A stretch of DNA of 45,490 bases. It comes from Neotamlana sedimentorum. Its GTDB lineage: Bacteria > Bacteroidota > Bacteroidia > Flavobacteriales > Flavobacteriaceae. The DNA is taken from positions 1 through 45,490 of the forward strand of contig NZ_JTDW01000021.1 of the NCBI RefSeq assembly GCF_000943565.1. The letters run 5' to 3'. How positions within the stretch are numbered: position 1 is the stretch's first letter; each line of letters begins with the position of its first letter. Shown here piece by piece: positions 1 to 16,972 of this stretch. The translations under genes were made by a program, and so were the position numbers. Below the pieces are notes generated by a model. That model saw only the letters and a program-made list of their open reading frames with translations, was not told where the DNA came from and searched no databases.

Positions 1-3000
1 AAGTATTGTTGCTTTCCCAGTCAATATCAGAATCTGTAGCTGCAATTAAAGTGCCACCAGCGTTAATTCTATATAAAGCATCACTATTAATAGGGTGGGA
101 GAAAGAAGTAACTTCCCATGAGAAAGTAATGGATTCGGTATCATCATTAAACTCATCATCGTCATCAACTGTAATAGTTACAGAGTAAGGACTGTTAACT
201 TCGGCACCCAAATTAATAGTACCTCCAATTTGACCATTAGTTGGTTCTATAAATAAGCCTGGTGGTAAACCTATAGCAGTATAGTTTAAATTTCCATCAC
301 CTCCTTGAGCGCTAACAACTAAACTTCCATTTAAAGTTTCTCCAGCATAGTTAGTTTGATTTGCCATTGCCTGGACAATAATTGGCGTATTGGATACAGA
401 AACCAATGACATAATTTCAATTGCATTTACAAGAGGGTTGTCTGTATTGTGTAAGAATTCAATATCAAGAACGCCATCTGTTACACTGACTGGATATGAT
501 AGCATTCCAGCAGTTTGGTGACCAAACTCTATAACTAAATCTAATTCTGTATAAGCAGCGTTATTTTCAATTAAAATATTAAAGACACGATCGTCTACAT
601 TTTGTGTACCATCGAACGTATTACATAAATATAAGTTAACCACGTAATCGTCGTTAGGAACGCTTATGCTATATTTCATTTCAGGGGTTGCTAAATCATC
701 GTACCTTTCTGTAGCGAATAAGGACGTAAATAGGGATTCAGAAATATAATCCGGTATAGAATTATGTCTGGTTAAATTAGAGACACCATTTGCATAAACT
801 TTTCCTGTGTTAACGAAAAAGTTTGAACCTGTATAGCTCCCTGCAATATTGTTTTGTTCCCAATTTATTCCAGATTCAGCATCGTTTATAGTTGTTCCTC
901 CAGAGTTTATTCTTAAAAAGGGCTCTAAAGAAACGTCGTTCATAATTACCCAGTTAAAAGTAGTGCTAACATTGTCTGTACTATCACCATCACTATCATC
1001 TACAGTTACTGTTACATTATACGGACTATTATTTGCGGCGGTAAAAGCAATTGTTCCTGTAAATACACCTGTATTCGAATCAATAGAGATTCCTTCGGGT
1101 AATCCTGATGCACTATAAATTAAATCGCCATCACCTCCAGTGGCATTGGCACCAAATGTATTATCTAATATTGTTCCTGTATTATCAATTTGATCAGAAA
1201 TATTCGATAATTCAATAGGATTGGTTTGGTCTTTGGTTACACTTAATACTCCCCAAGTACCTTCTAACTCAACATTAGGAGCGTTTGATGTACCGATAAA
1301 TCCAACAGCTAAATCTTCATTGGATTGCTGAATAGCATTTAAAATTGCACCTTGTGCTAAAATTGTGCCAAATGTTTGTTTTGTATCGTTATCAAAAGTG
1401 TATTCTAAAGTGATTTCTCCGTTGGTTGGATTAATTGTGAAGTTGAAAATAATTAAACCTTCAGGTCTATTATTTATATCGATATTTAAATCAATAGGAG
1501 TTTGAGGAATATCATTAATTTCTTGTTGTACTCTTAAGCCTTGTTGTCTAGCAACAAACTTTATATAATTACTTTGTGTACCATCTCCAATAAAGAAACC
1601 TAATTCACCATTTGGAGCTGATGTATTTCCATACAACTGAAGCGGTTGATTAAAGTTAACTATTTCTCCTTTTACAGTATAAATTCCAGTATTGGTGTCT
1701 GATTGTATACCATATTGAAATGCTTTTTCTTGCGTGTTTGCAGTACCTAATGCAGTACCAGAAGTCATTTGCATAGTCATGGCCCCAATGGCTCCACCTA
1801 AAATATCATTAGGGTTAGGCTCGTTAGGATCATCTCGTCTGTCTATCCAATTAAGCCAGTTACCGTTACCATCACCATTATTCATCATTCCGGTTAAACC
1901 TAAACCTAAATAACCTCCTAAAAGTGGGTTGTCTGAAAATAATTCGTTTATTACAGGTAGCACAAAAGCATCACTACCCGTTTTAGTAAAATCACCTAAT
2001 TGAAAAGGATCATTGATATCTAAAATGCCATCATTATCATCGTCATCATCATGTAAATTCGAAGTCAATGTACCTCCCGCTTCTTTATCGAAATCGGTTG
2101 GCTGCGATCCTCCATTACATGGATCGGTTAAGTTGTCCTCTTCATCTTGATTGGTATAACCATCGTTGTCGTAATCAGCTAATGGGTCGTATTCAAGGTC
2201 ACTAGGGTCAATACATTCAATAAAATCTTGAGGTTCTAATACAGTAATGTTTTGATTAAAGTTGCCCACCCAAATTGTTCCAGGAAAAATATCAGTATCA
2301 CCATTACAGGTTACTCCTAAAACATTACCTCCTAGACCAGATATAAAGCTTTCGGTATAATTACCAACATTACCGTTTTCATCAAGTTCAACTCTACGTA
2401 AAATACCTGTGTTTGTACCAGCTAATAAGTTACCCTGCATGGCACCGTTAAAATTGCTGGCAGTATATTCGTCTATTCCATTAGTATTTGTACCCCAAAT
2501 TAAAATGGCATTATCAACAGGACCGTCAGGATTAACTTCTCCAGGCCCTCTCCAATCACCTTCTACCGGGTTTGCATTACTAATGTCTAACGGAGGCCAA
2601 TCGGCAGGTAAACCAATACTTGAATCGGTTGTTGAGTTTGGGGTAGAGCCGTCTGGGTCATATAACAAGGTTCTAAAAACAGCGCCATTTAATCCGTGTT
2701 GTTCTGGAGCTGTAAATAAACCTGCTCCAGAAGGATTTGCTCTAGTAGGGTTAGGATGCCCACCATAAACACTTCCAAAAATATAGTTGTCTATATCTGT
2801 AGTTACAACATGTAGTTGGTCTTCATTATTAATTTGTTCTCCACCAGAAGGTGTACTACTACCAGGTTCAGAAGAATCATAATTGTTGGTAACATTAGCT
2901 GTACCTTCGTTAATAGGGAAACCTCCCCAACCACCATTGGCACCATTTTCTGTAACATAAACAGCTCCAGAGTTTGTTACTACTAAATCATAAGAGTTTC

Positions 3001-3901
3001 TATAACCTGGTGAGAATATTTGAACTGGGCTTCCAGCTACTATTTTTGCTTGATTTAATCCGTCATTTCCTCCAAAAGGGTCGTTAACGTCTATTCCATC
3101 ATAACCAGGAGCATTTGGGTCTTCAATACCGTTTTCGTTTGGTCTTGTAGGATCATCTAGTGTAGGAAGGTCGTAAATGTAATTTCTACCATTATTATTT
3201 AATATGGGTAAACTTTCAATTTGAGTTAAGTTCACAGTTATAATTGCGGCAGATAAAGCATATTCTGGTAAATATGTGAAATTTTTTGAAGGACTACCAC
3301 CATTTGTGTTTCCTCCCGAACAAACTAATAGGTAATCTTCACCATTTATTTGAGTAAAATCAAGACCGTGTGTTCCGTGATTTTCCTCCGATCGCGGCAA
3401 GCCTCGCACAATGTCTGCAATATCCCAAGACGTTCCGTTCCATATGTATCGTGTTATAATTCCGGAGTTTGTGTCTAGTCCAACATCGCCATGGCTAGAA
3501 CCACCTCCAATTCTATAATCACTAGAAGTAACATATATAATAGGGTTTGATGCTGTTCCTGCAACAGTAATACCAGTAGTTTCTCTATTGGTTGTTGTGT
3601 CTAAACTACCATCATCATTATGATTTTGAATAGTTTGGATATCGTTTAAAGTTTCCTTGGCTACAACTTGATAGGTGCCATTTTCAAGTCGCTCGATGGT
3701 GTATATTTTAATAAGCCCTTCATATTCTACGGTATAAAGGCGACCATCGGGACCAAACATTAAAGCTGTTACTTTATCGGCAGCACCAAATCCATTAAAA
3801 TTTAATGTACTTTGACTGAAATTTTGAGAAAAACTAAAGCTTGAGAATAAAACTAATAGAAGTGTAACAACTCTAAGTTGTCTTAAGTAATTTTTTTCCA
3901 T
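1..3901 (-). CDS. Secreted beta-propeller (sugar dehydrogenase-like) protein with malectin domains, 3' end missing
   Basis: The frame is open from the ATG at 3901 to the left edge, giving at least 1300 residues; the C-terminus lies outside the window. Residues 1-25 look like a signal peptide (charged start, LLLVLF core, ending SFSQ). Residues about 30-560 read like a glucose/sorbosone-dehydrogenase or NHL-type beta-propeller (FGPDGRLYTVEYEG, ENHGTHGLDFTQ). Acidic thrombospondin-3-like calcium motifs follow at about 574-630 (DYDNDGYTNQDEED). About 700-890 is a jelly-roll-like stretch. Two Ig/cadherin-like modules (LPxGxxIxxxTGxxxG, near 930 and 1205) alternate with two malectin-like carbohydrate-binding domains, the first from about 990 (RINSGG) and the second from about 1274 (RINAGG), which is truncated. 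The likely role is extracellular or surface carbohydrate binding. A type IX secretion tail may follow but cannot be seen. Domain names come from recognised motifs; enzymatic activity is not established. Confidence 0.75.
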   Translation of the reverse strand, partial: MEKNYLRQLRVVTLLLVLFSSFSFSQNFSQSTLNFNGFGAADKVTALMFGPDGRLYTVEYEGLIKIYTIERLENGTYQVVAKETLNDIQTIQNHNDDGSLDTTTNRETTGITVAGTASNPIIYVTSSDYRIGGGSSHGDVGLDTNSGIITRYIWNGTSWDIADIVRGLPRSEENHGTHGLDFTQINGEDYLLVCSGGNTNGGSPSKNFTYLPEYALSAAIITVNLTQIESLPILNNNGRNYIYDLPTLDDPTRPNENGIEDPNAPGYDGIDVNDPFGGNDGLNQAKIVAGSPVQIFSPGYRNSYDLVVTNSGAVYVTENGANGGWGGFPINEGTANVTNNYDSSEPGSSTPSGGEQINNEDQLHVVTTDIDNYIFGSVYGGHPNPTRANPSGAGLFTAPEQHGLNGAVFRTLLYDPDGSTPNSTTDSSIGLPADWPPLDISNANPVEGDWRGPGEVNPDGPVDNAILIWGTNTNGIDEYTASNFNGAMQGNLLAGTNTGILRRVELDENGNVGNYTESFISGLGGNVLGVTCNGDTDIFPGTIWVGNFNQNITVLEPQDFIECIDPSDLEYDPLADYDNDGYTNQDEEDNLTDPCNGGSQPTDFDKEAGGTLTSNLHDDDDDNDGILDINDPFQLGDFTKTGSDAFVLPVINELFSDNPLLGGYLGLGLTGMMNNGDGNGNWLNWIDRRDDPNEPNPNDILGGAIGAMTMQMTSGTALGTANTQEKAFQYGIQSDTNTGIYTVKGEIVNFNQPLQLYGNTSAPNGELGFFIGDGTQSNYIKFVARQQGLRVQQEINDIPQTPIDLNIDINNRPEGLIIFNFTINPTNGEITLEYTFDNDTKQTFGTILAQGAILNAIQQSNEDLAVGFIGTSNAPNVELEGTWGVLSVTKDQTNPIELSNISDQIDNTGTILDNTFGANATGGDGDLIYSASGLPEGISIDSNTGVFTGTIAFTAANNSPYNVTVTVDDSDGDSTDNVSTTFNWVIMNDVSLEPFLRINSGGTTINDAESGINWEQNNIAGSYTGSNFFVNTGKVYANGVSNLTRHNSIPDYISESLFTSLFATERYDDLATPEMKYSISVPNDDYVVNLYLCNTFDGTQNVDDRVFNILIENNAAYTELDLVIEFGHQTAGMLSYPVSVTDGVLDIEFLHNTDNPLVNAIEIMSLVSVSNTPIIVQAMANQTNYAGETLNGSLVVSAQGGDGNLNYTAIGLPPGLFIEPTNGQIGGTINLGAEVNSPYSVTITVDDDDEFNDDTESITFSWEVTSFSHPINSDALYRINAGGTLIAATDSDIDWESNNT

Positions 3902-4266: not shown

Positions 4267-5043
4267 TTAGTAATCGGATTTTTTGAGTTCTCTTAAAATA
4301 TAATCTTTGTTTTTAGTTAAGTCTTTGATTTTTAGTTTTTTGTTTGATGATTTCAAATTAATAGCAAAAGCACAGTGGTAGTTATTAACTAAATTCAAAC
4401 TAAAAACTTCCCATTTCCCATTATAAGCAGTATCTAAATTTTTAACATTGTGAGTCCCATTTCTGGAGGGTAGTTGTTTAAAATCATCATCAATCCCGAT
4501 GCCTGAAGCTTTAACAAGAGCTTCTTTTCTCGTCCAAAGTTTGTAAAAAAGCTCATTTGTATTTGAAGTGTTTAAAATTAAATCGGCTTCAGTATTATTA
4601 AATATGCTTGTAATTATTTCGCGTTCTATGGGTTTTGATTTTATTTTTTCGATATCGATGCCAACTTGTGTGTTAGAAAATACTATTGCTGCATATTCTC
4701 CCGAATGCGAAATATTAAAAAACATAGTAGGAGCAGTGTCTACATAAGGTTTTTTATTGGAATCAATTTTAATATTAATTTTAGTGGCAAGTATATTGGT
4801 GTGCTGTTCAAGTAAGAGTTTTAAAATTGTTCTGCAAACAATAAACCTATCACGGTCTTTTTTATGATAATAACGTTGCGCGCGTTTTAGCTCTTCTTTA
4901 TTAATAAGATGTTTTGCATGATCAATTAAAAAATGAAAGTCGGAAATTTTAAAATAATAAATGAAAGTATCTGCCTCATTTAATTCAAAATTTGAAGATT
5001 GATTATAATCAGAACAATATATGGTAGTTTTATTCTCTGGCAT
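4267..5043 (-). CDS. Sfp-type 4'-phosphopantetheinyl transferase
   Basis: 258 residues, the usual size for the Sfp/Gsp family. These enzymes transfer the phosphopantetheine arm of CoA to a conserved carrier-protein serine. The two family motifs are present: GIDIE with the metal ligands D130 and E132, and WTRKEALVKA with W170, E174 and K178. The start codon overlaps the end of the upstream NRPS gene by 14 nt, which implies translational coupling. As the last gene of the operon it is very probably the dedicated activator of the three carrier domains (S544, S1544 and S1012 of the two megasynthases). Its broad-specificity family type and its position support this; it could also serve other carrier proteins in the cell. 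Confidence 0.93.
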   Translation of the reverse strand: MPENKTTIYCSDYNQSSNFELNEADTFIYYFKISDFHFLIDHAKHLINKEELKRAQRYYHKKDRDRFIVCRTILKLLLEQHTNILATKINIKIDSNKKPYVDTAPTMFFNISHSGEYAAIVFSNTQVGIDIEKIKSKPIEREIITSIFNNTEADLILNTSNTNELFYKLWTRKEALVKASGIGIDDDFKQLPSRNGTHNVKNLDTAYNGKWEVFSLNLVNNYHCAFAINLKSSNKKLKIKDLTKNKDYILRELKKSDY

Positions 5044-8000
5044 TTCTTCGATCTATAACTTTTTGAAATACTTGAGCAACTTCTTCTTTATATTCATCTG
5101 CAAAAAGGTTGGCATGGTCTCCAGGAATATAGTGTATGTTTACACCTTTAAGAGCGAACTTTTTCCAACCCAAATGGTTTTTTACTTTTTTGTATGATGT
5201 TTCTTCTGTAGCTCTAAACAAATCAATATTAAAATTTTGAGGTTTTAAATGATATTGCGCTTTAAAACTTTTAATTATGCTTTCGGTTTGCATATAACGT
5301 TCGTACCTAAGTTTTTCTTCTTCGCTACTCCATTCAACTTTATTTATGTAATTAGTTGTGGGTTCAATGTAATATTTCTTTATAAAATCTATTTTTCGTT
5401 TTATATGTTTTTTAAGATTAGTTACACTAGAAAGCATCTCCTTTAAAAAGATAAAACGACGGTTCATACCTTCTGCGAAAATGGCTAATTTTTTTAATCG
5501 ATGCGATTTATAATGAAACTCTGTTTCTATTCTTGTATCGAACAAACCAATCATGCTTAATTTTTTGTTTCTTGCGGTGAGTTGAATGGCCATTTCGTAG
5601 GCTATAATACCGCCAATAGAATAACCTGCAATAGCGAAGGTGTCGGTTTCAGGTTCCATTTCAACTAATGAGTCTACATAAAACGTTGCAAGTTCTTCGA
5701 TCGTTTTATAAGGAAACGTATCTTTTTTTATGACACCTTTTACTTGTATACCAAATACAGGCTGATCGGGATCTAGATTTTCGGCAACGGCATTAAAAAT
5801 TAAAACTTCCATACCAGCGCCATGTACAATATAAACAGGTTTTTTATTGCCTTTAGGTTTTATAGGAATTATTGCTCCTGGGTAGTTTGTTTCTTTTGTA
5901 TTACTATCGGTAATTAGTTTCGAAAATGTTTCAATTGTAGGGTATTCAAATAACGAGGAAATTGGTAGTTCTTTATCAATTTCTTTTTTTATATCGTTCA
6001 TTACCTTTAAGGCAATTAATGAATGACCACCTAATTCGAAAAAGTTACTCGTTATACTTATTTTACTTATTTTTAAATGCTTTTGCCAAATTTTGGCTAA
6101 TAGCTTTTCGGTTTCGTTTTGAGGTGACACAACTTGTGTTTGCGACTCATTTTTCGATGAACTTATTTTTTGTAGCGCATTTTTGTCTATTTTTCCGTTT
6201 GGTGTTTTAGGGAAATTAGAAAGCACATTTATTTCTTGAGGTACTAAATAGGCAGGAAGTTTACTTTCAAGATATTGTTTCCAAGCTGTTATTTCGGCAG
6301 ATTGAATTTTAGTCGTTTTTTCTGGCTTTATAAAAGCAATCAACCTATCGTTGTTAACAATAACAATTGCCGAATTTATTTCGGTGTTTTGCGTTAAGGT
6401 TTGTTCAATTTCACCTAATTCTATACGGTGTCCACGAATTTTTACTTGATTATCCATTCTACCAAGACACAGTATTTCTCCGTTGGGTAGCAGTTTTCCT
6501 AAATCTCCAGTTTTATAAAGTTTGCTCTCACTATAATTAGTATTTATAAACTGCTCTGTTGTTAATTCGGTTCTGTTAAAATAACCGTTTGAAACACCCA
6601 AGCCAGCAATTGAAATTTCGCCTATTACATTTGGTGGCATTAAATGATTTTCTGAATTTAAAATATAAACTTCGGTATTATTTATTGGTTTTCCAATGGT
6701 TATTGTGGTATCGTTTTTAGTTATTTCTGTAATAATAGAATAAATAGTGGTTTCTGTTGGACCGTACATATTCCATAGCGATTTACATCTGTTTAAAATT
6801 TGTAAAGCAAGGTTATTGCTTAAAGCTTCACCGCCACAAAAGGCTTTTATTTCGAGTTTATTATTCCAGCCTGCTTCAATAAGCATTCTCCAAGTAGTTG
6901 GCGTTGCTTGAATAATGGAAACCTGTTCTTTTTTTATGAGTTTTAATAATAAATTACCGTCTCTAGTTGTTTCGGTATCTGCTAAAACAATTGAGGCTCC
7001 GTTTAATAATGGCAAAAACAATTCTACCAACGAAATGTCGAACGAAATGGTGGTAATGGCCAGCATTTTGTCGGATTTTGTGATGCCGGGTTTTTCAGAA
7101 ATACTAAGTAAAAGATTTATTAAATTTTTATGCGTAATGCTAACTCCTTTTGGTTTTCCTGTTGAGCCTGAAGTGTATAAAACATAAGCGTAATCATTTT
7201 GAGAAATCTTTATGTTTGGTTTTGCTGTAGAATGATTGTTAGAATCTTTTAATGCGTCATCTAATGGTATAACTTTAAGATGTTCTGGTTTAGAAATGTT
7301 TAAATTAATACTGGTAATTAAAAATTTAGCTTTCGAATCTTCAAGCATAAATGCAATGCGGTCTTGAGGATATTTGGTGTCTAGCGGAATATAAGCGGCG
7401 CCACTTTGTAAAATAGCAATTAGCGTTGGTAACAAGTTGCTGTTACGATCTATGCAAACGCCGACAAAATCACCCGGTTTTACGCCTTGTTCTATTAAAT
7501 AATGTGTTAGCTGATTTGCTTTAAAGAATAAATCCTGATATGTGACATGCTCGTTATTAAAGCTTAAAGCTAGGTTTTTAGCAGATTTTTCGGCCTGTTC
7601 TTGCAGTAAAATAGGTAAGGCATCTGCTGAAAATTGACTAGTAGTGGCATTTAGTTTTTGGTATGCTTCTAAATAATTTTCTGAAAAAACATCATGCAGC
7701 GGTTGGTTTGGTTTTAAGCAAATTAATTTTATAATAGCCTCAAACTGTTGCATGAAGCTTTTTATGGTTTCTTCTTTAAAAATAGAGGTGTTGTACGACC
7801 ATTCCAGCACCAAATTATTTTCGTTTCCACTAGCATTTAAAAATATTTCGAAAGTTTCAAATGTTCTGGGGTTGCTTTTTAATTTATAAGTTAGATTGTT
7901 GAAAAAAACGCCATTTGTCATTCCCAAATCGATATTAAACACTATGGGAACAAGCGGCACTCGCGACGGGTTTCGTGGTATTGAAATCTTTTTAAGCAGA

Positions 8001-9055
8001 TGTCCGAAGCTAAGTTGTTGATGTTCGTAGGCATCAAACAGAGTCGATTTACGTTGTTTTAAATATTCTGTAAAGGTTTGGTTATTGGTTAAAGTGGCTC
8101 GAAGCGGTAGTAAATTTACACAGTGCCCAATAAGTTGCTGCATACCTGTAACCGATTGGCCTGCTGCTGGTAATCCTATAGTTATGTCGGTTTCTCCAGT
8201 AACTTTAAAAACGAAAACTTCGAATGCCGCTAATAGTGTAGTTACCAAACTAGAATTATTATTTAAACCACATTGTTTTATTAGGTTTAAAGCCTCTTTA
8301 CTTAAAGAAAAATCGAGTCTGTTACTTGCGTAACTTCTAGATTTCGGAAATGAATAATCGGTTGGTAAGTTGTAGTTGGGAATTGAAGATTTATAAGTGT
8401 TTATCCAATAATTTTCAATAGTATTATAAGTGTCGCTTTCAATTAAATCTGAATTTTCATCGGCATAATCACTAAAATTGATACTGTTAGGTAATTCTGG
8501 TAGTTTATTTTGATTATAAGCTGAATATAAAACACCAAGTTCTTGAAGTAAAATGCCTAACGACCAACCATCGCAAATTATATGATGCGCTGTAATGACC
8601 AAAGTGAAGGCTTCTGTGGCTGTTTTTATTAAGCCAAACTTTATTAGCGGCCCTTTTACTAAGTTAAATACGTAATTGGCTTCGTTATTTATAAAATTGT
8701 TTAGGTAAGTGTTGGTTTTAGGGGTTTTTTCTAAAGTTGTGTCTTTAAAAAATAATACTGTTTTTAGATTTTTAAAAACGGTCATAAACTGGCCGTTAGT
8801 ACTAAAAACCGCTCGAAGCGATTCATGACGATTCACTAAATCGTTTACCGATTTTTCTAAATGATCGATATTTAGATTGCCTTCAAAATATACCGAAATA
8901 GACTCGTTATAGGCTCTGTTGGCATCATCGCCACCTAACTTGCAGCTTGTCCAAATTTCATCTTGAGCTTGAGTAGTATGTATAACCTTTTCTATTTCTG
9001 AACCAGAAAAGGGATTAAATGGAGTTGTATTTAGAGTAAATTCAGGGTTTTCCAT
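5030..9055 (-). CDS. Terminal NRPS module, C-A-PCP-TE
   Basis: 1341 residues. The condensation domain (about 20-450) has the catalytic motif HHIICDG (H157, H158, D162). Its N-terminal part (TQAQDEIW near residue 30, then AYNES) resembles the hybrid-type C domains that follow aminotransferase domains in PKS/NRPS proteins. The adenylation domain (about 465-960) shows YTSGSTGKPKG near 625, NMYGPTETT, YKTGDLG and NGKIDK. My manual alignment to GrsA gives the pocket code D-I-V-Q-F-G-M-I-Y-K, closest to the glycine-type code I remember (DILQ-G-IWK pattern). The carrier domain has GGHSL with S1012, and the type I thioesterase (about 1065-1335) has GYSIGG with nucleophile S1146 and GDH near the end. 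It adds the last building block and releases the product by hydrolysis or cyclisation. The substrate call is inference. Confidence 0.93.
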   Translation of the reverse strand: MENPEFTLNTTPFNPFSGSEIEKVIHTTQAQDEIWTSCKLGGDDANRAYNESISVYFEGNLNIDHLEKSVNDLVNRHESLRAVFSTNGQFMTVFKNLKTVLFFKDTTLEKTPKTNTYLNNFINNEANYVFNLVKGPLIKFGLIKTATEAFTLVITAHHIICDGWSLGILLQELGVLYSAYNQNKLPELPNSINFSDYADENSDLIESDTYNTIENYWINTYKSSIPNYNLPTDYSFPKSRSYASNRLDFSLSKEALNLIKQCGLNNNSSLVTTLLAAFEVFVFKVTGETDITIGLPAAGQSVTGMQQLIGHCVNLLPLRATLTNNQTFTEYLKQRKSTLFDAYEHQQLSFGHLLKKISIPRNPSRVPLVPIVFNIDLGMTNGVFFNNLTYKLKSNPRTFETFEIFLNASGNENNLVLEWSYNTSIFKEETIKSFMQQFEAIIKLICLKPNQPLHDVFSENYLEAYQKLNATTSQFSADALPILLQEQAEKSAKNLALSFNNEHVTYQDLFFKANQLTHYLIEQGVKPGDFVGVCIDRNSNLLPTLIAILQSGAAYIPLDTKYPQDRIAFMLEDSKAKFLITSINLNISKPEHLKVIPLDDALKDSNNHSTAKPNIKISQNDYAYVLYTSGSTGKPKGVSITHKNLINLLLSISEKPGITKSDKMLAITTISFDISLVELFLPLLNGASIVLADTETTRDGNLLLKLIKKEQVSIIQATPTTWRMLIEAGWNNKLEIKAFCGGEALSNNLALQILNRCKSLWNMYGPTETTIYSIITEITKNDTTITIGKPINNTEVYILNSENHLMPPNVIGEISIAGLGVSNGYFNRTELTTEQFINTNYSESKLYKTGDLGKLLPNGEILCLGRMDNQVKIRGHRIELGEIEQTLTQNTEINSAIVIVNNDRLIAFIKPEKTTKIQSAEITAWKQYLESKLPAYLVPQEINVLSNFPKTPNGKIDKNALQKISSSKNESQTQVVSPQNETEKLLAKIWQKHLKISKISITSNFFELGGHSLIALKVMNDIKKEIDKELPISSLFEYPTIETFSKLITDSNTKETNYPGAIIPIKPKGNKKPVYIVHGAGMEVLIFNAVAENLDPDQPVFGIQVKGVIKKDTFPYKTIEELATFYVDSLVEMEPETDTFAIAGYSIGGIIAYEMAIQLTARNKKLSMIGLFDTRIETEFHYKSHRLKKLAIFAEGMNRRFIFLKEMLSSVTNLKKHIKRKIDFIKKYYIEPTTNYINKVEWSSEEEKLRYERYMQTESIIKSFKAQYHLKPQNFNIDLFRATEETSYKKVKNHLGWKKFALKGVNIHYIPGDHANLFADEYKEEVAQVFQKVIDRRNARE

Positions 9056-9086
9056 AAATTAAATTGTATTCACTTCACAATTAAGA

Positions 9087-9977
9087 TTACACACGAATCC
9101 CTTTTTTATCTAAGGTTTTCATGAGACGAATCATCTTATTTAAATAGATTTTTGCTAGTTTAGATTTAAAACTACTTCTTTTGTTTAAACTCATTTCTAC
9201 TTCTTTTTGAAATTGATCGAAGTTAGATTGATTTAAACTGTCTTGAGCAATAGAAATTGTTGGCGTTAACGATTTTGCTGTATGCCACCAGCCGCAGGGA
9301 ATAAACAAGGTTTCACCAGGACCAACGGTAAATGTAATTGGAGTTAATTGTTTGGCTTTAGGGAATTTTTCATAATCTATATTGTAAATATTAGGGATTT
9401 CAGAAACCCATAAATTTTCTTTTACTGGATATACAAATTCGGTTTGATGGGGTGGTATTACGGTAAATTCTTTATAGCCTTGTATTTGTGTGATATAGGC
9501 ATGCAAACATAAATAATCGTAATGCACATAAGGGAACATGCCTCCTGGACTTCCAAAGAAAATTTCTAAAGTATCGGCATGACCAAGAAATTTTTTAGGC
9601 ATTAATTTACTGTGACACCAATCTGGCATAGCATATTTAAACCTTGGTGAAACATCTGGAATTAATTCTGGGTAATTTCTATCTATTTGAAGTTTGCAAG
9701 GGTAGGGTGCTGGGTTATCTTCGTTCGCCGTTTCCATTAAATCAATATAATCTGCTAGTTTGAATGTTTTTCCTTCAATCCAAACTTCCCGATCGCCATA
9801 TTTCTCTTTAAAAAACTGTGTCGTAAATTTTTCTTTTGCCTTCCAATCTTTACAAGCATCACCTAAAACTACAGGATAATTTGCAAATAAATGCTTTTCT
9901 GCAAATGCTTCATAAGTAAGGTTGTACTTTTTTTCAACCGTATAATTGCCCACTTTAGCCAATTCAATTGTATCCAT
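9087..9977 (-). CDS. JmjC/cupin_8-type Fe(II) 2-oxoglutarate oxygenase
   Basis: 296 residues matching the JmjC-like cupin_8 family, which usually uses Fe(II) and 2-oxoglutarate to hydroxylate peptides or small molecules. The metal triad is visible as H152 and D154 (HYD) with H232 (GWWHT). The sequence around GPGETLFIPCGWWH is the typical second half of the cupin barrel. The gene lies 5 nt after the upstream megasynthase gene and 31 nt before the downstream one, so it is co-transcribed. Its place exactly between the two megasynthases suggests that it tailors a carrier-bound intermediate or the released product. It could instead hydroxylate a protein. Family and metal site are seen; substrate is inferred. 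Confidence 0.85.
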   Translation of the reverse strand: MDTIELAKVGNYTVEKKYNLTYEAFAEKHLFANYPVVLGDACKDWKAKEKFTTQFFKEKYGDREVWIEGKTFKLADYIDLMETANEDNPAPYPCKLQIDRNYPELIPDVSPRFKYAMPDWCHSKLMPKKFLGHADTLEIFFGSPGGMFPYVHYDYLCLHAYITQIQGYKEFTVIPPHQTEFVYPVKENLWVSEIPNIYNIDYEKFPKAKQLTPITFTVGPGETLFIPCGWWHTAKSLTPTISIAQDSLNQSNFDQFQKEVEMSLNKRSSFKSKLAKIYLNKMIRLMKTLDKKGIRV

Positions 9978-9982
9978 AATTT

Positions 9983-12900
9983 TTATATATCTAACTTAAT
10001 AAAATTACCATTTTCATTATTATCTTCAATAAACCAAGCAGGATTTCCATCTTCATCTAAACCTAATTTAGCTCCTGCAATAGGTGGTGTATTAAGTTCT
10101 GCAGTATTTCTTTTTTTAGTTATTTGAGTTGAACTTTTTGATGTGTTAACGTTAAAAATTCCATTTTCAATTAAGCAATTAACACTATTATTAAAGGCTT
10201 TTATTATAAACCTGAAATCTTCTTCAGTAAAAGCGGTAGTTATAAAACAAGGGAAACCATCCCAAATATGTATGCCTTCATTTCGCAATAAAACAAAAAG
10301 TAGTTCGGAATAAGGGATGTCTTCTAAAAATTTAACGCGCCAGAGCGAACCAAAGTAGTTAACTTGAATAGGTAATTGATGCTGATTAAATATTTGGTTT
10401 ACCTTATCTGCAAATGTTTTTGTAGCGATATTTAAATTAATATGAAGTTTATCGCCTTCATTTATCATATGTAATAAGGACGCTTTTGCTGCCGCTAATG
10501 TTAATGGATGCCTTACAAAAGTACCCGCAAAATAGGTGACACCTACTTCGGGGAACGAGCTATCGCCATATTGCCAAAAACCGCCATCTAGAGCATCCAT
10601 AAATTGTTTTTTACCTACAATAGCGCCAATAGGCATACCGCCTCCAATTACTTTTCCGTAGGTAGAAATATCGGCTTTAATGTTAAATAAGGCTTGCGTA
10701 CCACCAATGTGCATTCTAAAACCTGTAATAACTTCATCGAAAATAAGAACAGCGTTGCTGTTTTGGGTAATTTCTCTTACTGATTTTAAAAATGCAACGG
10801 GTTGAAATTCAGGACGCCTACTTTGTACAGGCTCAACAAGTACGGCCGCAATTTCATGTGCTCTTTCTTTAATTATTTGTAAACTTTCTTCGGTTCCATA
10901 GTCTAAAATTAACATGTTTTGTACAGCTCCAGAAAGAATGCCTGGTGCGGCAGGAAATGTTTTTAATTTTTTCGATCCGCGTACTATAACTTCGTCGTTA
11001 ATGCCGTGATAAGATCCAGAAAACGCAACTATTAAGGAGCGACCTGTTACGGTTCTGGCAATTCTCATAGCTCCTAATACGGCTTCAGACCCTGTGTTGC
11101 ACAAGGCTGCGCGATCTTGGTTTGTGGCCTCACAAAGTAGTTTACAAACATCTCCAGCCAAAGGGTGTTGCGGACCAACTTCGTAACCTAATTCTATTTG
11201 ATTTTTTAAAGCTTCTTTTATAAATTCTGGCTGATGGCCAAAAAGGCAAGAACCAAACCCATTGAGTGCATCGATATATTGGTTGCCATCAATATCCCAA
11301 AGTTTATTTCCTTTCGATTTTTCTATAACAATAGGGTAAATAAGCTCTTTTACTGTTGGCTTAAAGCCACTCACCACACGAGGATCGGCCATGTGTTTTC
11401 GGTGTTCTTGAGTGAAATTTTTACTGGCCTTAGTTTTGTTATTATAATCTGTAATTAATTGTTTTAAAAAGTCCGATTGCTGTTCGGCTAGCTCGGTTGA
11501 TTGTTTTTCAATTTTAGGAGAAGCTCCAAAGGGTTTTTTATGCTCTTTTTGTTCTTCTTCTGTTAAAATGGTATGCTTGCTTTCTGCTTTAACAAATTGG
11601 TTTGCGCTAGAATTATCTGCACTATAATTAGGGTTTATTATTGGTGTAGCACTATTTCCTTTTTGAAGTAATTCAACTTGCTTTCCTAATAACTGAAGTT
11701 GTTGCGTAATTAAGTCTAACGCCGTATGATTAGTTGATTCGTTAAATTGATTATTGTTTGATTGATTTAAATTAACGAGATTATTATTTGCTAATTGTTG
11801 CGTTGCATAAGCTTCTTTTGGAAGGTGATTATCTAAAAAAGAGGCAAGAAGTTCGGGAGAACTTAGCTCTTCATTTAACTGGCGGAATGAAATAGGAATA
11901 TTAAATTCGTTTTTGCAGGTTAAAGCAATTTGAGTTAATATTAAAGAATCGAGTCCGAGTTCTAGGAAACTATAATTGTAATCGGTAGATTCAATTTCTA
12001 TTCCCGATGAATTGGTAATAATTTCAGAAATTTTATTAAGTAATGCAGGTTTCCTCATTGGTGTAATCTTGTTTGTCTGTTCGGCTACTGGACTATTGTT
12101 TTCAATTAGTGTACTCTGTTTATTTTCTTCAATAAAAGATACATTTTGATGTGGTGTAATTGGTTCTATCCAGCATAATTTTCTATCGAATGCGTAAGCA
12201 GGAAGGTTAAGTCGTTGTATGTTTTTGGTATTAAAAAACGAGTCCCAGTTAACCGATATGTCGTTTATCCATAATTGCCCAACGGTGTTTAGTATAAGGT
12301 CGTAAGCGGTTTCTTTATCCTTCGGAATGGTTAAACTTGGTAAAACTATTTTATGTTTAGCTAGTGTTTGTTGTTTGGTTAACGTCGTAAGTGCTTTGCC
12401 AGGTCCAACTTCTAATAAAGCAACATCGTTAAGATTTAATATTGTTTTTATGGCTTCTGAAAACTGTACTGTTTCTCTTAAATGATTAACCCAATAATCC
12501 GGATTAGTCGCTTCTTCTGCTTTTAACCATGTGCCAGTTACAGTTGATGAAATTGGTATTGAAGGAGCATTCAATTCCATGTTTTTAAAGACCTTTTTAA
12601 AGTCGTTTAGTATAGGATTCATCATACTTGAATGAAAAGCATGACTGGTTAAAAGTTGTTTGTTAACAATATTATCCTGTGATAATTTAGCGCTAAAGTT
12701 TTTTATAGCCTCGTCTTCGCCGGAAACAACACATAAAACACTGGAGTTTGCTGCAGCTATAGAAAGAGATTTTGGTAAAATAGGTTTTATATCTTCAACC
12801 GAAAGTCTTACAGAAAGCATACTTCCTTTAGGTAATTCACTAACAAGTTTTCCTCTGGTAGCTATTAATTTTAAGGCATCTTCTAGACTGAAAACACCTG

Positions 12901-15900
12901 CTAAATGTGCTGCAACAAATTCCCCAATACTATGTCCACAAAACGCAGTAGGTTTTAAACCCCAATGCAACCAAAGTTGAGCTAAAGCATATTCTATAAT
13001 AAATAAAGCAGGTTGGGTGTATTTGGTGTCTTTTAGAAGCGTTTTGGCTGTTTCATTGCTGTTGTTAGGGTAAATTATATTTCTTATATCTTCATTAAGA
13101 ATTGGGATTAATATTAAGGCACATTTATCGACAGCTTCTTTAAAAACTGGTTCGTTTTCGTATAAAGCTTTCCCCATGTTTAAAAATTGAGCACCTTGAC
13201 CAGGAAACATAAACACCAATTCACTAGGTGAATATGTGTTTGTGTTAACGGGTTTAAAATCCTTAAGTTTTAATTGATCGATAGCATTTTCAACCGAGTC
13301 TGTAATTATATATTTTCGATGTTTAAACTTCGCTCTAGTTTTATTTAGGGTATAGGATAGACGGCCTAAATGTGTTTCCGGATTTTGTTCTAAATAGGTT
13401 ATTAAACTATCGGCATATGCGTTTACACTTGTTTCGGTTTTAGCAGACCATGGTAAAATATAACTGAATTTGGTAGGGGTAATGGTGTTATTGTTATTCT
13501 CAAATTCTTCTAAAACAACATGAACATTTGTGCCACCAACACCAAACGAACTTACACCAGCTCGTCTTACTGTAGCGGATTTCCAGTTTTGTAATTGAGC
13601 GTTCACATAAAACGGACTATTTTTAAAGTCTATTTGTGGGTTAGGGGTTTTATAACCAAGCGATGCAGGAATTTGTTTGTTGTGTAAAGCTAAAACCGAT
13701 TTTATTAACCCTGCAACGCCTGCAGCTGCCGTTAAATGCCCCATGTTGCTTTTTATAGACCCTATGGCGCAGAATTGTTTTTCTTCTTGTTCACCAAAAG
13801 CATCATTTAACCCTTCAAATTCAATAGGGTCGCCAATTGGTGTCGCAGTACCATGAGTTTCAACATAACTAATGGTTTCAGGTAAAACATCGGCATCAAA
13901 TAATGCCTTTTTTATAGCGTTTGTTTGTCCTGTAGCATTTGGAGCAGAAAAACTGCCTTTGTTTCCGCCATCGTTATTAATGCCTATACCTTTTATTATT
14001 CCGTAAATAGTATCAGCATCGTTTTGGGCATCTTCTAAACGTTTTAATAATACAACTCCTGCACCATCACTAAAAACGGTGCCTTTTCCTTGGGCGTCGA
14101 ACGAGCGGCAATGACCATCTGGACTCATAATTGAGCCTTCTTGATATAAGTGTCCAGAATTAATAGGAGCGGTTACACTGGCTCCACCAGCAATGGCGAC
14201 TTCACATAAATTATTTCGAAGCGCTTCTACAGCATGAGCAATAGCTAACAACGATGTAGAGCATGCCGAATGTACACTTACCGCTGGTCCTTTTAAATTT
14301 AAATGATATGCGGTTCGTGTGGCGATATAGTCTTTTTCGTTAACAGAATCGGCTTGAATGTCGCCAATACTATTTAAAACATCTTGATTTGGTAATATGT
14401 TTTTCTTGAAATAGCTATTCATTCCAACCCCGGCATAAACACCTACACTACCATTAAAATGTTCGGGTAAATAGCCAGTTTGTTCTAAAACCTCCCAAGC
14501 AATTTCTAAAAATAAGCGTTGCTGCGGATCCATACACGCAGCAAGCTTAGGGTTTAAGCCAAAAAAGGCAGCATCAAACGTTTTTGCAGTTGGTATAATG
14601 CCGCGTGCTGCTACATACTGCGGATTGTTTTTTATATGTTCTGGAATCGTTTTATCTAATTCTTCATGAGAGAAAAAACGAATGGTTTCTTTAGCATTTT
14701 TTAAAACATCCCATAACTCGGTTATTGTATTGGCTCCAGGAAATCTTCCAGACATACCAATAATGGCAATATCTCGGTTGTCTAAACTCGTGATTTTTTT
14801 AAAGAATTGATTCTTGGTATCTAAAGTTTTACCTTCTAAAATGAAACTTAATGCTTCAATGGTAGGAAATTGATAAATTTTAGTAACCGGAAGTTTTTTG
14901 TTTGTTTCTTTTGATATTTTAATGCTTATTTTTTGGGCTAGGAGCGAAGTGCCGCCCATATCAAAAAAATTATCGTAAATACCTATTTCTGGAATGCCTA
15001 ATAAGTCTTCCCAAATTTTAACAATTATTTTTTGAGTTTTAGTTGTTGCTTTTTTTAATACAGGTGCGTTTTCTGGACGTTTATATTCTGGTTTAGGTAG
15101 TGCTTTTTTATTGATTTTTCCGCTTGCTGTACGCGGAAAATCTTCAACTTCAATAAATAAAGAAGGCATCATGTATTCTGGTAAAACATTACCTGTTTCT
15201 TCTTTAATTTTAGAGATGGAAAGGTGTTTATTGTTAAATTGAACGTAAGCTACCAACTGTGTTTGTTGCATGTTTTGTACAGCTAAAACAACAGTTTGTT
15301 GCACGTTATTTATATTGTTTACAGCAATTTCTATTTCGGCTAATTCTATTCTATGACCACTAATTTTTACTTGGTCATCTTGTCGTCCTAAAAATTCGAT
15401 ATTTCCATCGGGTAAATATTTTGCAATATCACCAGTTCTATAAATTTTTAGTGTTTTACCATCAGCATTGGTCCAGTCTACAAACTTTTCGTTTGTTAGG
15501 GAAGGATTATTTAAATAACCTTCGGCTAAGGGTGTGCCAGTGATACATAATTCACCTTGCTCCCCGTTAGGTAAAGGTTTTAAATCTTTATTTAAAATTA
15601 AAATTTCTGCATTTAAAATAGGTTTACCAATAGAAGGTAAAGCGGGCCATGTGTTTGGAGGGCCAGTTAATTTTAGCTCGGTTACAACATGGCATTCTGT
15701 AGGACCATATTGGTTATATAAAATACAATGGTTTAAATTATTAAAAAATGTTTTTATTTGAGGCGTTATTTTAAGTTGTTCTCCAGCGGCCATAATTTCT
15801 TTCAATGATTCTGGATATACATTGGTGTTTACAGCTATCTCTGCTATGGCTTGCAAAGCAGCAAAAGGTAAAAATAGTCGGTTTACTTTTTGCTGTTTTA

Positions 15901-16576
15901 TATAAACAAGCAAATCGTCCATATTTAACCTTAGGGAATCGTTAATTAAAACGAGAGTGCCTCCAGAGTTAAAGGTTGCCATAATTTCTTGAAAAGACAC
16001 ATCGAAACTTAAAGGAGCAAATTGTAATGTTTTAGTATGGATTGTACTAACCGAATTATTGTTTTGCCATTCCAATAGGTTAAAAATAGCGTTTTTGCCC
16101 ATGCTAACCCCTTTAGGTTCACCCGTTGAACCAGATGTGTATAAAATATATGCTAAAGAATTAGGAGTATTTTTATCTTCTAAATTAGAAGCATTGTAGT
16201 TACTGTTTACGGTTAATAAACCTAAACTATTTGCTTTAGCTTCTTCGGCTTCATCTGTTAAACAAACTTTTAGTTTTGCATTATTAATTATAGCATTTAA
16301 TCGTTGGTTGGGGTAGTTAAAATCTAAAGGTAAATAAGCTTTATTGGCTTTAAATAAAGTTAATAGGTTAATTATTTGATCAATACTTCTAGTTGTGGAA
16401 ATACCTACAATTTGTTCTTGAGCAATTAATCTATTTATTTTATTATGTCTTCTATTAACTTCGAGAGCAGCTTGTTTATAGGTTATGCTTTTGTTATTTA
16501 GAACAATACAGACATTGTCGGGATAACGGTTTGCAGTATTTTCAAATAATTGGTATAAATTGGTTTGAGGCATCAT
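9983..16576 (-). CDS. Hybrid NRPS/PKS megasynthase, A-PCP-KS-AT-ACP-aminotransferase
   Basis: 2197 residues. An adenylation domain begins at residue 1 with no starter C domain, so this is the loading module (YTSGSTGEPKG near 146, NQYGPTE, YRTGD, SGKINKKAL). My manually aligned pocket code is D-V-Q-F-M-A-Q-V-V-K, nearest to remembered proline codes (DVQF-A-H-V). Then follow a carrier domain (GGTSL, S544); a ketosynthase with SACSTS (C772), H908 and H947; an acyltransferase with GHSIGE (S1216) and HAFH (1312-1315), the malonyl-type signature; an ACP (GLDSL, S1544); a Q/N-rich linker; and a class III PLP aminotransferase (about 1690-2130) with FDEVITGF and PLP lysine K1975 (YGKVIGGG). No KR, DH, ER or MT lies between AT and ACP, so the aminotransferase should act on a beta-ketone. 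The tail (GNPAWFIED) is the linker usually found between such a domain and a C domain. The start ATGATG follows an AGGAT purine stretch. Confidence 0.94.
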   Translation of the reverse strand: MMPQTNLYQLFENTANRYPDNVCIVLNNKSITYKQAALEVNRRHNKINRLIAQEQIVGISTTRSIDQIINLLTLFKANKAYLPLDFNYPNQRLNAIINNAKLKVCLTDEAEEAKANSLGLLTVNSNYNASNLEDKNTPNSLAYILYTSGSTGEPKGVSMGKNAIFNLLEWQNNNSVSTIHTKTLQFAPLSFDVSFQEIMATFNSGGTLVLINDSLRLNMDDLLVYIKQQKVNRLFLPFAALQAIAEIAVNTNVYPESLKEIMAAGEQLKITPQIKTFFNNLNHCILYNQYGPTECHVVTELKLTGPPNTWPALPSIGKPILNAEILILNKDLKPLPNGEQGELCITGTPLAEGYLNNPSLTNEKFVDWTNADGKTLKIYRTGDIAKYLPDGNIEFLGRQDDQVKISGHRIELAEIEIAVNNINNVQQTVVLAVQNMQQTQLVAYVQFNNKHLSISKIKEETGNVLPEYMMPSLFIEVEDFPRTASGKINKKALPKPEYKRPENAPVLKKATTKTQKIIVKIWEDLLGIPEIGIYDNFFDMGGTSLLAQKISIKISKETNKKLPVTKIYQFPTIEALSFILEGKTLDTKNQFFKKITSLDNRDIAIIGMSGRFPGANTITELWDVLKNAKETIRFFSHEELDKTIPEHIKNNPQYVAARGIIPTAKTFDAAFFGLNPKLAACMDPQQRLFLEIAWEVLEQTGYLPEHFNGSVGVYAGVGMNSYFKKNILPNQDVLNSIGDIQADSVNEKDYIATRTAYHLNLKGPAVSVHSACSTSLLAIAHAVEALRNNLCEVAIAGGASVTAPINSGHLYQEGSIMSPDGHCRSFDAQGKGTVFSDGAGVVLLKRLEDAQNDADTIYGIIKGIGINNDGGNKGSFSAPNATGQTNAIKKALFDADVLPETISYVETHGTATPIGDPIEFEGLNDAFGEQEEKQFCAIGSIKSNMGHLTAAAGVAGLIKSVLALHNKQIPASLGYKTPNPQIDFKNSPFYVNAQLQNWKSATVRRAGVSSFGVGGTNVHVVLEEFENNNNTITPTKFSYILPWSAKTETSVNAYADSLITYLEQNPETHLGRLSYTLNKTRAKFKHRKYIITDSVENAIDQLKLKDFKPVNTNTYSPSELVFMFPGQGAQFLNMGKALYENEPVFKEAVDKCALILIPILNEDIRNIIYPNNSNETAKTLLKDTKYTQPALFIIEYALAQLWLHWGLKPTAFCGHSIGEFVAAHLAGVFSLEDALKLIATRGKLVSELPKGSMLSVRLSVEDIKPILPKSLSIAAANSSVLCVVSGEDEAIKNFSAKLSQDNIVNKQLLTSHAFHSSMMNPILNDFKKVFKNMELNAPSIPISSTVTGTWLKAEEATNPDYWVNHLRETVQFSEAIKTILNLNDVALLEVGPGKALTTLTKQQTLAKHKIVLPSLTIPKDKETAYDLILNTVGQLWINDISVNWDSFFNTKNIQRLNLPAYAFDRKLCWIEPITPHQNVSFIEENKQSTLIENNSPVAEQTNKITPMRKPALLNKISEIITNSSGIEIESTDYNYSFLELGLDSLILTQIALTCKNEFNIPISFRQLNEELSSPELLASFLDNHLPKEAYATQQLANNNLVNLNQSNNNQFNESTNHTALDLITQQLQLLGKQVELLQKGNSATPIINPNYSADNSSANQFVKAESKHTILTEEEQKEHKKPFGASPKIEKQSTELAEQQSDFLKQLITDYNNKTKASKNFTQEHRKHMADPRVVSGFKPTVKELIYPIVIEKSKGNKLWDIDGNQYIDALNGFGSCLFGHQPEFIKEALKNQIELGYEVGPQHPLAGDVCKLLCEATNQDRAALCNTGSEAVLGAMRIARTVTGRSLIVAFSGSYHGINDEVIVRGSKKLKTFPAAPGILSGAVQNMLILDYGTEESLQIIKERAHEIAAVLVEPVQSRRPEFQPVAFLKSVREITQNSNAVLIFDEVITGFRMHIGGTQALFNIKADISTYGKVIGGGMPIGAIVGKKQFMDALDGGFWQYGDSSFPEVGVTYFAGTFVRHPLTLAAAKASLLHMINEGDKLHINLNIATKTFADKVNQIFNQHQLPIQVNYFGSLWRVKFLEDIPYSELLFVLLRNEGIHIWDGFPCFITTAFTEEDFRFIIKAFNNSVNCLIENGIFNVNTSKSSTQITKKRNTAELNTPPIAGAKLGLDEDGNPAWFIEDNNENGNFIKLDI

Positions 16577-16736
16577 TTATCCTAAGTTTATTACAACTTA
16601 ATATTAGCGATTTTTAATAAGAATAAATGTAAAGATAAATTTTGTGAGTAATGCCTAGAAATCTCTACCAAGTAATAATTATCGATAAAGTGCAGGAAAT
16701 TTAACTGTAGTCAATGTGTTTTTAAAGGAGATAAAG

Positions 16737-16821
16737 TGCGCACGAGAAGATTCGAACTTCCACATTCTAAACGAATACTGGCCCCTCAAGCCAGCGCGTC
16801 TACCAATTCCGCCACGTGCGC
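16737..16821 (-). tRNA. tRNA-Leu (anticodon GAG)
   Basis: 85 nt with a long variable arm as expected for leucine tRNA. The acceptor stem GCGCACG/CGTGCGC pairs perfectly and is followed by discriminator A; no CCA is encoded. The anticodon stem CTGGC/GCCAG encloses the loop TTGAGGG, which gives anticodon GAG. The T arm GTTCGAATC is intact. It lies downstream of the tRNA-Lys gene and its terminator, and its 3' end faces the biosynthetic operon. Confidence 0.96.
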
Positions 16822-16864
16822 GGTTTTTGTATTGCTAAAATAAGCGTTTATTATAATTTTAAGC

Positions 16865-16898
16865 AAAAAAAAAACCTTGTTAGTTTAACAAGGTTTTT
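16865..16898 (-). terminator. Intrinsic terminator of tRNA-Lys
   Basis: A perfect 13-bp stem (16870-16882 with 16886-16898, core AACCTTGTTA/TAACAAGGTT) with a 3-nt loop. On the minus strand it is followed by a T-tract given by the A-run from about 16874 down to 16865. It begins two bases after the tRNA-Lys gene, so it should end that transcript before tRNA-Leu. Confidence 0.85.
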
Positions 16899-16899
16899 G

Positions 16900-16972
16900 T
16901 GACCGGGCTGGGGCTCGAACCCAGGACCCTCTCCTTAAAAGGGAGATGCTCTACCAACTGAGCTACCCGGTC
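16900..16972 (-). tRNA. tRNA-Lys (anticodon TTT)
   Basis: 73 nt including the discriminator A; no CCA is encoded. The acceptor stem GACCGGG/CCCGGTC, D arm GCTC/GAGC, anticodon stem TCTCC/GGAGA with loop CTTTTAA, and T arm with TTCGAGC are all well formed. The loop gives anticodon TTT. A strong Bacteroidota-type promoter lies about 34 nt upstream and an intrinsic terminator directly downstream. Confidence 0.96.

Follow-up and report, generated by a model that had tools for sequence, protein, structure and literature searches.

A proline-type, probably aminating NRPS-PKS line from Neotamlana sedimentorum and its Bacteroidota family, with a predicted vicinal-diamine pseudo-dipeptide product

We analyzed a small biosynthetic locus of Neotamlana sedimentorum (Flavobacteriaceae) on contig NZ_JTDW01000021.1 of assembly GCF_000943565.1; "the window" hereafter denotes this whole stretch of 45,490 nucleotides, which is an entire contig (C15) of the genome. 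Four minus-strand genes spanning 16576–4267 encode a hybrid of nonribosomal peptide synthetase (NRPS) and polyketide synthase (PKS), P0004; a Cupin_8/JmjC protein; a second NRPS, P0002; and a 4'-phosphopantetheinyl transferase (PPTase) (Table 1). From their domain content we infer, with somewhat more confidence than doubt, that the line joins proline, malonate and glycine into a pyrrolidine-based, probably hydroxylated pseudo-dipeptide carrying a vicinal diamine. For its core we predict 3-amino-3-(pyrrolidin-2-yl)propanoyl-glycine, an amine-bearing analogue of the "Det" residue of detoxin. The locus belongs to a common Bacteroidota family in which the loading domain has been exchanged on an otherwise constant chassis.

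Domain order and predicted chemistry

An original prediction, made from the letters of the sequence alone, had read the two megasynthases as A-PCP-KS-AT(malonyl)-ACP-AMT and C-A-PCP-TE (A, adenylation; PCP and ACP, peptidyl and acyl carrier; KS, ketosynthase; AT, acyltransferase; AMT, aminotransferase; C, condensation; TE, thioesterase). Pfam recovered both orders in place and, at E 0.001, found no ketoreductase (KR), dehydratase, enoylreductase, methyltransferase or N-terminal (starter) C domain in P0004 or P0002, as that prediction had also proposed; the Cupin_8/JmjC and Sfp-type PPTase genes had been overlooked. Gaps of 5, 31 and −14 bases between the four co-directional genes suggest that they form one operon, and the C domain of P0002 is the sole condensation domain found in the 3.96-Mb genome. 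Across 78 aligned hybrid proteins (the window's and 77 relatives; 73 partner NRPSs were aligned likewise), the PCP and ACP serines, the KS Cys/His/His, the AT Ser/His and the AMT Lys and Asp are invariant, indicating that the assembly line is under constraint and no relic. We take the HAFH motif of the AT as the malonyl type.

The best support for beta-amination comes from the closeness of the AMT to MycA of mycosubtilin biosynthesis, whose AMT is its nearest structure in the PDB (6kfu, 410 bits, vs at most 181 bits for glutamate-1-semialdehyde aminomutase, GSAM). MycA aminates a beta-ketoacyl-ACP, and most known AMT lines start from fatty or aryl acids. The window shares with the MycA type a class-III AMT fused after a PKS ACP, the lack of any beta-ketone reduction before it (no KR by Pfam) and an intact lysine for pyridoxal phosphate (PLP), Lys1975, which like Asp1947 is present in 78 of 78 hybrids. 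It departs in its starter, since the chain begins with an amino-acid A domain bearing Asp235 and the code DVQFMAQVV. Among the domains compared, the AMT is the best conserved (pairwise means 70–73%). These results favor the mycosubtilin-type amination of an unreduced ketone that had been proposed.

In the pathway that we propose, the Sfp-type PPTase would arm the carrier domains, and A1 would load an amino acid, predicted to be proline in this genome, onto the first PCP. KS and AT would condense the loaded proline with malonate to 3-oxo-3-(pyrrolidin-2-yl)propanoyl-ACP, and the fused AMT would turn the beta-ketone into an amine; because the chain is begun by an A domain for an amino acid, this amination would give a vicinal diamine. 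The C domain of P0002 would then join the resulting beta,gamma-diamino acyl chain with the residue supplied by A2, predicted to be glycine, and the TE would free the pseudo-dipeptide, linear or cyclised, while the Cupin_8 enzyme would hydroxylate the proline-derived unit. The single malonyl extension, single acceptor residue and TE release of the original prediction are all supported by the sequence.

To assign building blocks, we read the A-domain pockets by alignment to GrsA PheA, appending the tenth letter, K, rather than reading it; pocket meanings outside the cited codes are tentative. The top single-domain PDB match of A1 is TycB1 (9bfd_B, 326 bits), which we take to load proline. The A1 pocket, DVQFMAQVV, agrees at eight of nine read positions with DVQFVAQVVK, which PMC9113097 gives as a proline code along with DVQFVSQVMK. 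A1 is accordingly read as a predicted proline domain, in which case the gamma nitrogen would be the ring nitrogen of a pyrrolidine: the amino-acid loading of the original prediction stands, its free primary amine does not. The A2 pocket of the window reads DIVQFGMIY, with position 299 as F in two readings and C in another, and is compared with DILQLGMIWK, a glycine code according to PMC12283262. Relatives carry DILQ[LI]G[MVL][IV]W in 46 of 70 readable A2 domains and the looser D[IM].Q.[GC] in 53, and clearly different acceptor pockets occur in some, e.g., DVQYMAQVV in L154, L165 and L171. For A2 of the window, glycine is thus likely, but the call is weaker.

Starter exchange and cupin association across the family

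Although the arrangement had been thought unusual, it proved to be widespread in Bacteroidota. The 80 loci named here are the best 80 of 581 confirmed ones rather than a random sample, and all 80 are Bacteroidota by title (Winogradskyella, Maribacter, Gelidibacter, Flavobacterium, Robiginitalea, Mucilaginibacter, Pedobacter, Hymenobacter, Spirosoma and others). A hybrid of >2100 aa is present in 77 of the 80, and in 71 of these 77 a same-strand NRPS partner of >1000 aa follows downstream, at some loci after an intervening cupin gene; two megasynthases close together on one strand, the arrangement by which we define the family, are thus seen in the window and 71/77 relatives. In the six exceptions, the NRPS lies upstream (L111, L116, L117), is split into several frames (L124), is not seen (L145) or falls at a contig cut (L160). 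A PPTase accompanies 61 of the 77. A search of 397 Flavobacteriaceae genomes (own included) gave full-length homologues in 12 others, plus one that a contig end cuts short, and a phylum-wide sample of 395 gave them in 12 genomes other than that of the window; a whole-protein search of the genome contigs recovered no relative.

Starter pockets vary across this family. Proline-type A1 domains make up 43 of the 72 readable, 38 of them (window included) with exactly DVQFMAQVVK, and one of six A1 domains read later carries the same code; the remaining codes presumably look like those for asparagine, threonine and valine or are unassigned. Mean A-core identity is 66% within proline types vs 37% between proline and other types, while the chassis is nearly as similar across starter types as within them (within/across: KS 68/67%, AT 57/56%, AMT 73/70%). 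This divergence of the A core against uniform KS, AT and AMT domains indicates that the loading domain has been exchanged on a constant chassis.

The cupin gene is associated with the proline-type starter. Its product matches JMJD5, JMJD6 and FIH in the PDB, and an HxD...H triad with a 2-oxoglutarate (2OG)-binding lysine (His152, Asp154, His232; Lys169), roles that we assume from FIH/JMJD6, is invariant in 17 family cupins. The presence of this Fe(II)/2OG hydroxylase gene in the operon makes a hydroxylated product probable. The gene lies between the megasynthase genes in the window, Winogradskyella (L126, L140), Flavobacterium (L129, L136, L139) and Robiginitalea (L155), and upstream copies occur at other loci; L129, from Flavobacterium sp. 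245, shares the gene order of the window. For the 72 starters read first, A1 is of the proline type in 12 of 13 cupin loci vs 31 of 59 cupin-less ones (31 proline, 28 other; Fisher p = 0.007, uncorrected for kinship), and the between-type cupin is found at 7 of 43 proline-type loci vs 0 of 29 with other starters (p = 0.022, likewise uncorrected); the six later reads (five non-proline, one proline) all lack a cupin. In the core tree, proline-type loci with a between-type cupin stand beside non-proline, cupin-less sisters in three pairs (L139/L134, L155/L131 and window/L128). At L139, the cupin is present although the pocket of the first downstream NRPS does not resemble a glycine type, which makes the proline-derived unit its likelier substrate.

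Several observations weigh against a hydroxylated proline–glycine product, whose every chemical step is predicted from sequence. The A2 pocket of the window departs from DILQLGMIWK at three of nine read positions, and even the looser glycine pattern does not fit 17 of 70 relatives. The window/L128 pairing joins long branches, the window's nearest relatives by distance being others, and L126 and L140 offer no contrast, since the between-type cupin that they carry is absent from the proline-type relatives nearest to them. A starter other than the proline type is found at one cupin locus, L130, and 31 proline-type loci have no cupin inside the fetched flanks, i.e., hydroxylation would be optional in the family.

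Other variation was seen among the relatives. Release proteins reach 2420–2807 aa, vs the usual ~1330, at L133, L138, L146 and L183 (two C, two A and two PCP domains plus a TE in the scan of the L133 NRPS), so some members probably yield longer products. A methyltransferase domain lies within the NRPS of L164, and a class-I methyltransferase of ~285 aa is encoded upstream of the cluster at 26 of 80 loci (L110–L174); the latter was rejected as part of the window cluster, having only a weak 23% match elsewhere in the window's genome. A membrane-type protein of ~266 aa accompanies this methyltransferase at 16 loci, and one homologue, L080, is Rce1-like in Pfam. A Pycsar-effector-like protein (PycTM and HD domains; L186:302-1510) stands beside one cluster, with its family near six loci. 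Among plasmids, 591 records matched at E 1e-100, seven of them with a single stretch spanning 80% or more of the query, and four were inspected. In the Variovorax VAI-C plasmid, the hybrid has the same order, with an A1 that we take to be valine-like, and its partner has a glycine-like A2, two C domains, two carriers and no TE, so that release differs there. A 2OG-Fe(II) oxygenase gene precedes the hybrid in Variovorax RA8, the Jannaschia hybrid forms part of a 3192-aa fusion protein, and the plasmid copy of Spirosoma linguale, itself one of the Bacteroidota, lies in a stretch without an annotated NRPS partner. Genes annotated as TIGR04325 methyltransferase are present in the Variovorax and Jannaschia relatives; for protein P0005 this assignment was rejected, as no NCBIfam model matched at E 1e-5.

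Genomic setting and alternative readings

In two genomes of the same genus (G001, G002), the cluster is absent and a GDP-mannose dehydratase gene adjoins tRNA-Leu, tRNA-Lys and shikimate kinase. A third (G003; L029/L030) holds in the same gap a different cluster with A-PCP-KS-AT-ACP plus an extra carrier, C-A-PCP-KS-AT-ACP, C-A-PCP-TE and a PPTase, i.e., two PKS modules, neither AMT nor cupin, and glycine-like codes in both C-A modules. Its A-PCP-KS-AT hybrids are 46–49% and its C-A-PCP-TE protein 44% identical to those of the window, with the PPTase common to both, and this NRPS is no nearer to the window's than are those of other genera (15 compared, range 42–50%). The gap appears to be a hot spot beside the tRNA genes, occupied through independent acquisitions. 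On the left, the gene immediately after that of the PPTase (window 2–3901) encodes a large malectin/He_PIG (carbohydrate-binding) protein and is cut by the contig end, and contig C3 starts with a cut He_PIG/Kelch/Por-secretion-tail open reading frame (ORF) followed by GDP-mannose dehydratase; the two contigs therefore probably adjoin there. A core truncated by the contig edge was rejected, since with these ends inferred to meet within the He_PIG gene, the four-gene core appears whole.

Table 1 Features of the locus in window coordinates
Feature	Position	Strand	Details	Basis
P0004 hybrid, A-PCP-KS-AT-ACP-AMT	16576-9983	-	2197 aa	Pfam
A1 adenylation	15092-16546	-	P0004 residues 11-495; pocket DVQFMAQVV(K), proline-like	Pfam; GrsA PheA alignment
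Loading-module PCP	14846-15025	-	P0004 518-577, Ser544	Pfam; Ser in 78/78
KS + C-terminal extension	13304-14776	-	P0004 601-1091; Cys772, His908, His947	Pfam; invariant 78/78
AT, malonyl-type	12359-13216	-	P0004 1121-1406; Ser1216, HAFH 1312-1315	Pfam; HAFH in 77/78
ACP	11807-12064	-	Ser1544; approximate limits	second PP-binding stretch (Pfam); Ser in 78/78
AMT, class-III PLP aminotransferase	10265-11338	-	P0004 1747-2104; Lys1975, Asp1947	Pfam Aminotran_3
Cupin_8/JmjC Fe(II)/2OG hydroxylase	9977-9087	-		Pfam; PDB matches JMJD5/JMJD6/FIH
P0002 NRPS, C-A-PCP-TE	9055-5030	-	1341 aa	Pfam
C domain	7688-8992	-	P0002 22-456; HHIICDG	Pfam; HHxxxDG in 70/73
A2 adenylation	6191-7606	-	P0002 484-955; pocket DIVQFGMIY(K), glycine-like (DILQLGMIWK relatives)	
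PCP of P0002	5912-6103	-	residues 985-1048, Ser1012	Pfam; Ser in 73/73
TE	5063-5839	-	P0002 1073-1331; GYSIGG	Pfam; GxSxGG in 73/73
Sfp-type PPTase	5043-4267	-		Pfam ACPS + AASDHPPT_N
tRNA-Leu(gag) + tRNA-Lys(ttt)	16736-16972	-	right border of insertion site	

The Pfam scan bears out the earlier remark that no exporter or resistance gene lies in the operon. Ten flanking ORFs, out to 24837, were also scanned; the EamA gene at 22918–23814, the only transporter-family gene of its kind among them, was rejected as the cluster exporter because an 88% homologue occupies the corresponding place in G003. Polysaccharide genes beside some relatives bear on the biological role, which the original prediction had left open. 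It is possible, though unlikely, that the product is an acyl substituent of surface polysaccharide or lipopolysaccharide rather than a free secreted metabolite. If the product decorates polysaccharide, the lack of exporter and resistance genes would be no puzzle, and the swapping of starters would amount to antigenic or phage-escape variation. Eighteen markers (Wza, Wzc, Wzx, sugar transferase, glycosyltransferases, GDP-mannose dehydratase and a GDP-fucose-synthase-like epimerase, our label for the NAD epimerase adjoining GDP-mannose dehydratase) were found near 31 of the 80 loci and in 6 of 16 neighbourhoods from our genome collection, overlapping sets whose counts are kept apart, vs none of 19 control stretches, each 20 kb long, taken from 12 of the collected genomes. 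The test is partly circular, because the markers were drawn from these same neighbourhoods, and related loci share markers by descent. Recurring contexts include Wza-Wzc-Wzx in Maribacter, GDP-mannose dehydratase in other Flavobacteriaceae and glycosyltransferases in Mucilaginibacter and Pedobacter, yet 49 of the 80 loci have no marker in their short flanks, nor does the window contig. Export, autokinase, glycosyltransferase or flippase genes adjoin two of the four plasmid relatives inspected, those of Variovorax VAI-C and Jannaschia, whereas the annotations of Variovorax RA8 and Spirosoma linguale list no polysaccharide genes, RA8 having RND/TolC efflux genes nearby; HlyD and ABC-2 transporter genes lie near the cluster of relative G234. 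The insertion site in the window's genus borders GDP-mannose dehydratase, but G001 and G002 show the same border without the cluster, and capsule regions generally serve as integration sites of foreign DNA. No enzyme attaching the product to a glycan was found. A broader version, in which a phylum-wide combinatorial pathway supplies vicinal-diamine acyl-glycine units to surface glycans through a constant chassis, a swapped starter A domain and an added hydroxylase or methyltransferase, we regard as improbable. If true, one assembly-line domain change would vary the bacterial surface, and the window version would be the hydroxylated proline type ("aminodetoxinine"-glycine).

Other chemistries were weighed against the aminated pseudo-dipeptide. 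Early lactam release, with the gamma nitrogen attacking the ACP thioester, would give 4-aminopyrrolidin-2-ones or, with proline, 1-aminopyrrolizidin-3-one, a lactam on the loline-type ring skeleton. Closure of a five-membered ring is chemically easy, and N-acyl protection is absent since no starter C domain precedes A1; such a shunt would, however, not need the second protein, which is retained downstream in 71/77 relatives with HHxxxDG in 70/73 and the TE motif in 73/73, and we consider it quite improbable. We give still less credence to a GSAM-like AMT, which would move the gamma amine to the beta carbon via a vicinal diamine and leave a gamma ketone, for primary-amine starters only. The two enzymes belong to one family (the aminotransferase matches HemL, i.e., GSAM, at 251 bits in a separate search), a 4-amino-3-oxoacyl chain is an alpha-amino ketone of the GSAM kind, and the GSAM reaction passes through a vicinal diamine. 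Against this, the MycA AMT is far closer (410 vs 181 bits), and the commonest starter code is that of proline, whose ring nitrogen should be unable to migrate in this way. An inactive AMT, leaving a beta-keto amide or tetramate-like ring, is scarcely credible: the AMT-less, two-PKS-module variant of G003 at the same site indicates that lines without amination exist, but the catalytic Lys1975 and Asp1947 are invariant and the AMT is the best conserved of the compared domains. A vicinal-diamine pseudo-dipeptide thus remains the favored product.

Relation to known systems

The window line extends the known AMT-containing hybrid lines, and represents a common Bacteroidota family for which searches of open-licence PMC papers found neither a description, a product nor a characterized cluster of the same domain order. 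To our knowledge, the beta,gamma-diamino acid motif is uncommon in natural products, and the line would make it accessible by a genetically encoded route. In addition, a natural series with a changing starter A domain would be useful for assembly-line engineering, and the family becomes testable in culturable Flavobacterium, Pedobacter and Mucilaginibacter.

As in the AMT modules of mycosubtilin (MycA), iturin and microcystin synthases, the window has an ACP followed by a fused class-III AMT acting, as predicted, on an unreduced beta-ketone. MycA uses a fatty acid starter, whereas the window line would use an amino-acid starter, one extension and one acceptor residue. A large cluster in another of the Flavobacteriaceae (G022:C8; L032/L033) encodes a mycosubtilin-like KS-ACP-AMT-C protein with TauD and many NRPS modules. 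The guadinomines, whose diamine presumably has a different origin in an aminomalonyl unit, are likened here by product motif alone. Their vicinal diamine matters for activity, according to PMC6963908.

The nearest published logic found, by analogy, appears to be that of the detoxin Det residue. As described in PMC9503745 and PMC12828459, the Det unit of detoxin, rimosamide and miramide is built from proline and one malonate, the ketone is reduced by a KR, a separate TauD-like dioxygenase hydroxylates the pyrrolidine and the product is a depsipeptide; the miramide line reads A-T-C-A-T-KS and KR-T-TE. This pyrrolidine hydroxylation parallels the role proposed here for the cupin (PMC12828459, PMC9503745). 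The window has, by code and domain order, a predicted proline-type A domain feeding a KS, and lacks both the KR and the TauD-like dioxygenase. In the window line, an AMT replaces the KR, Cupin_8 replaces TauD, and proline would serve as the starter.

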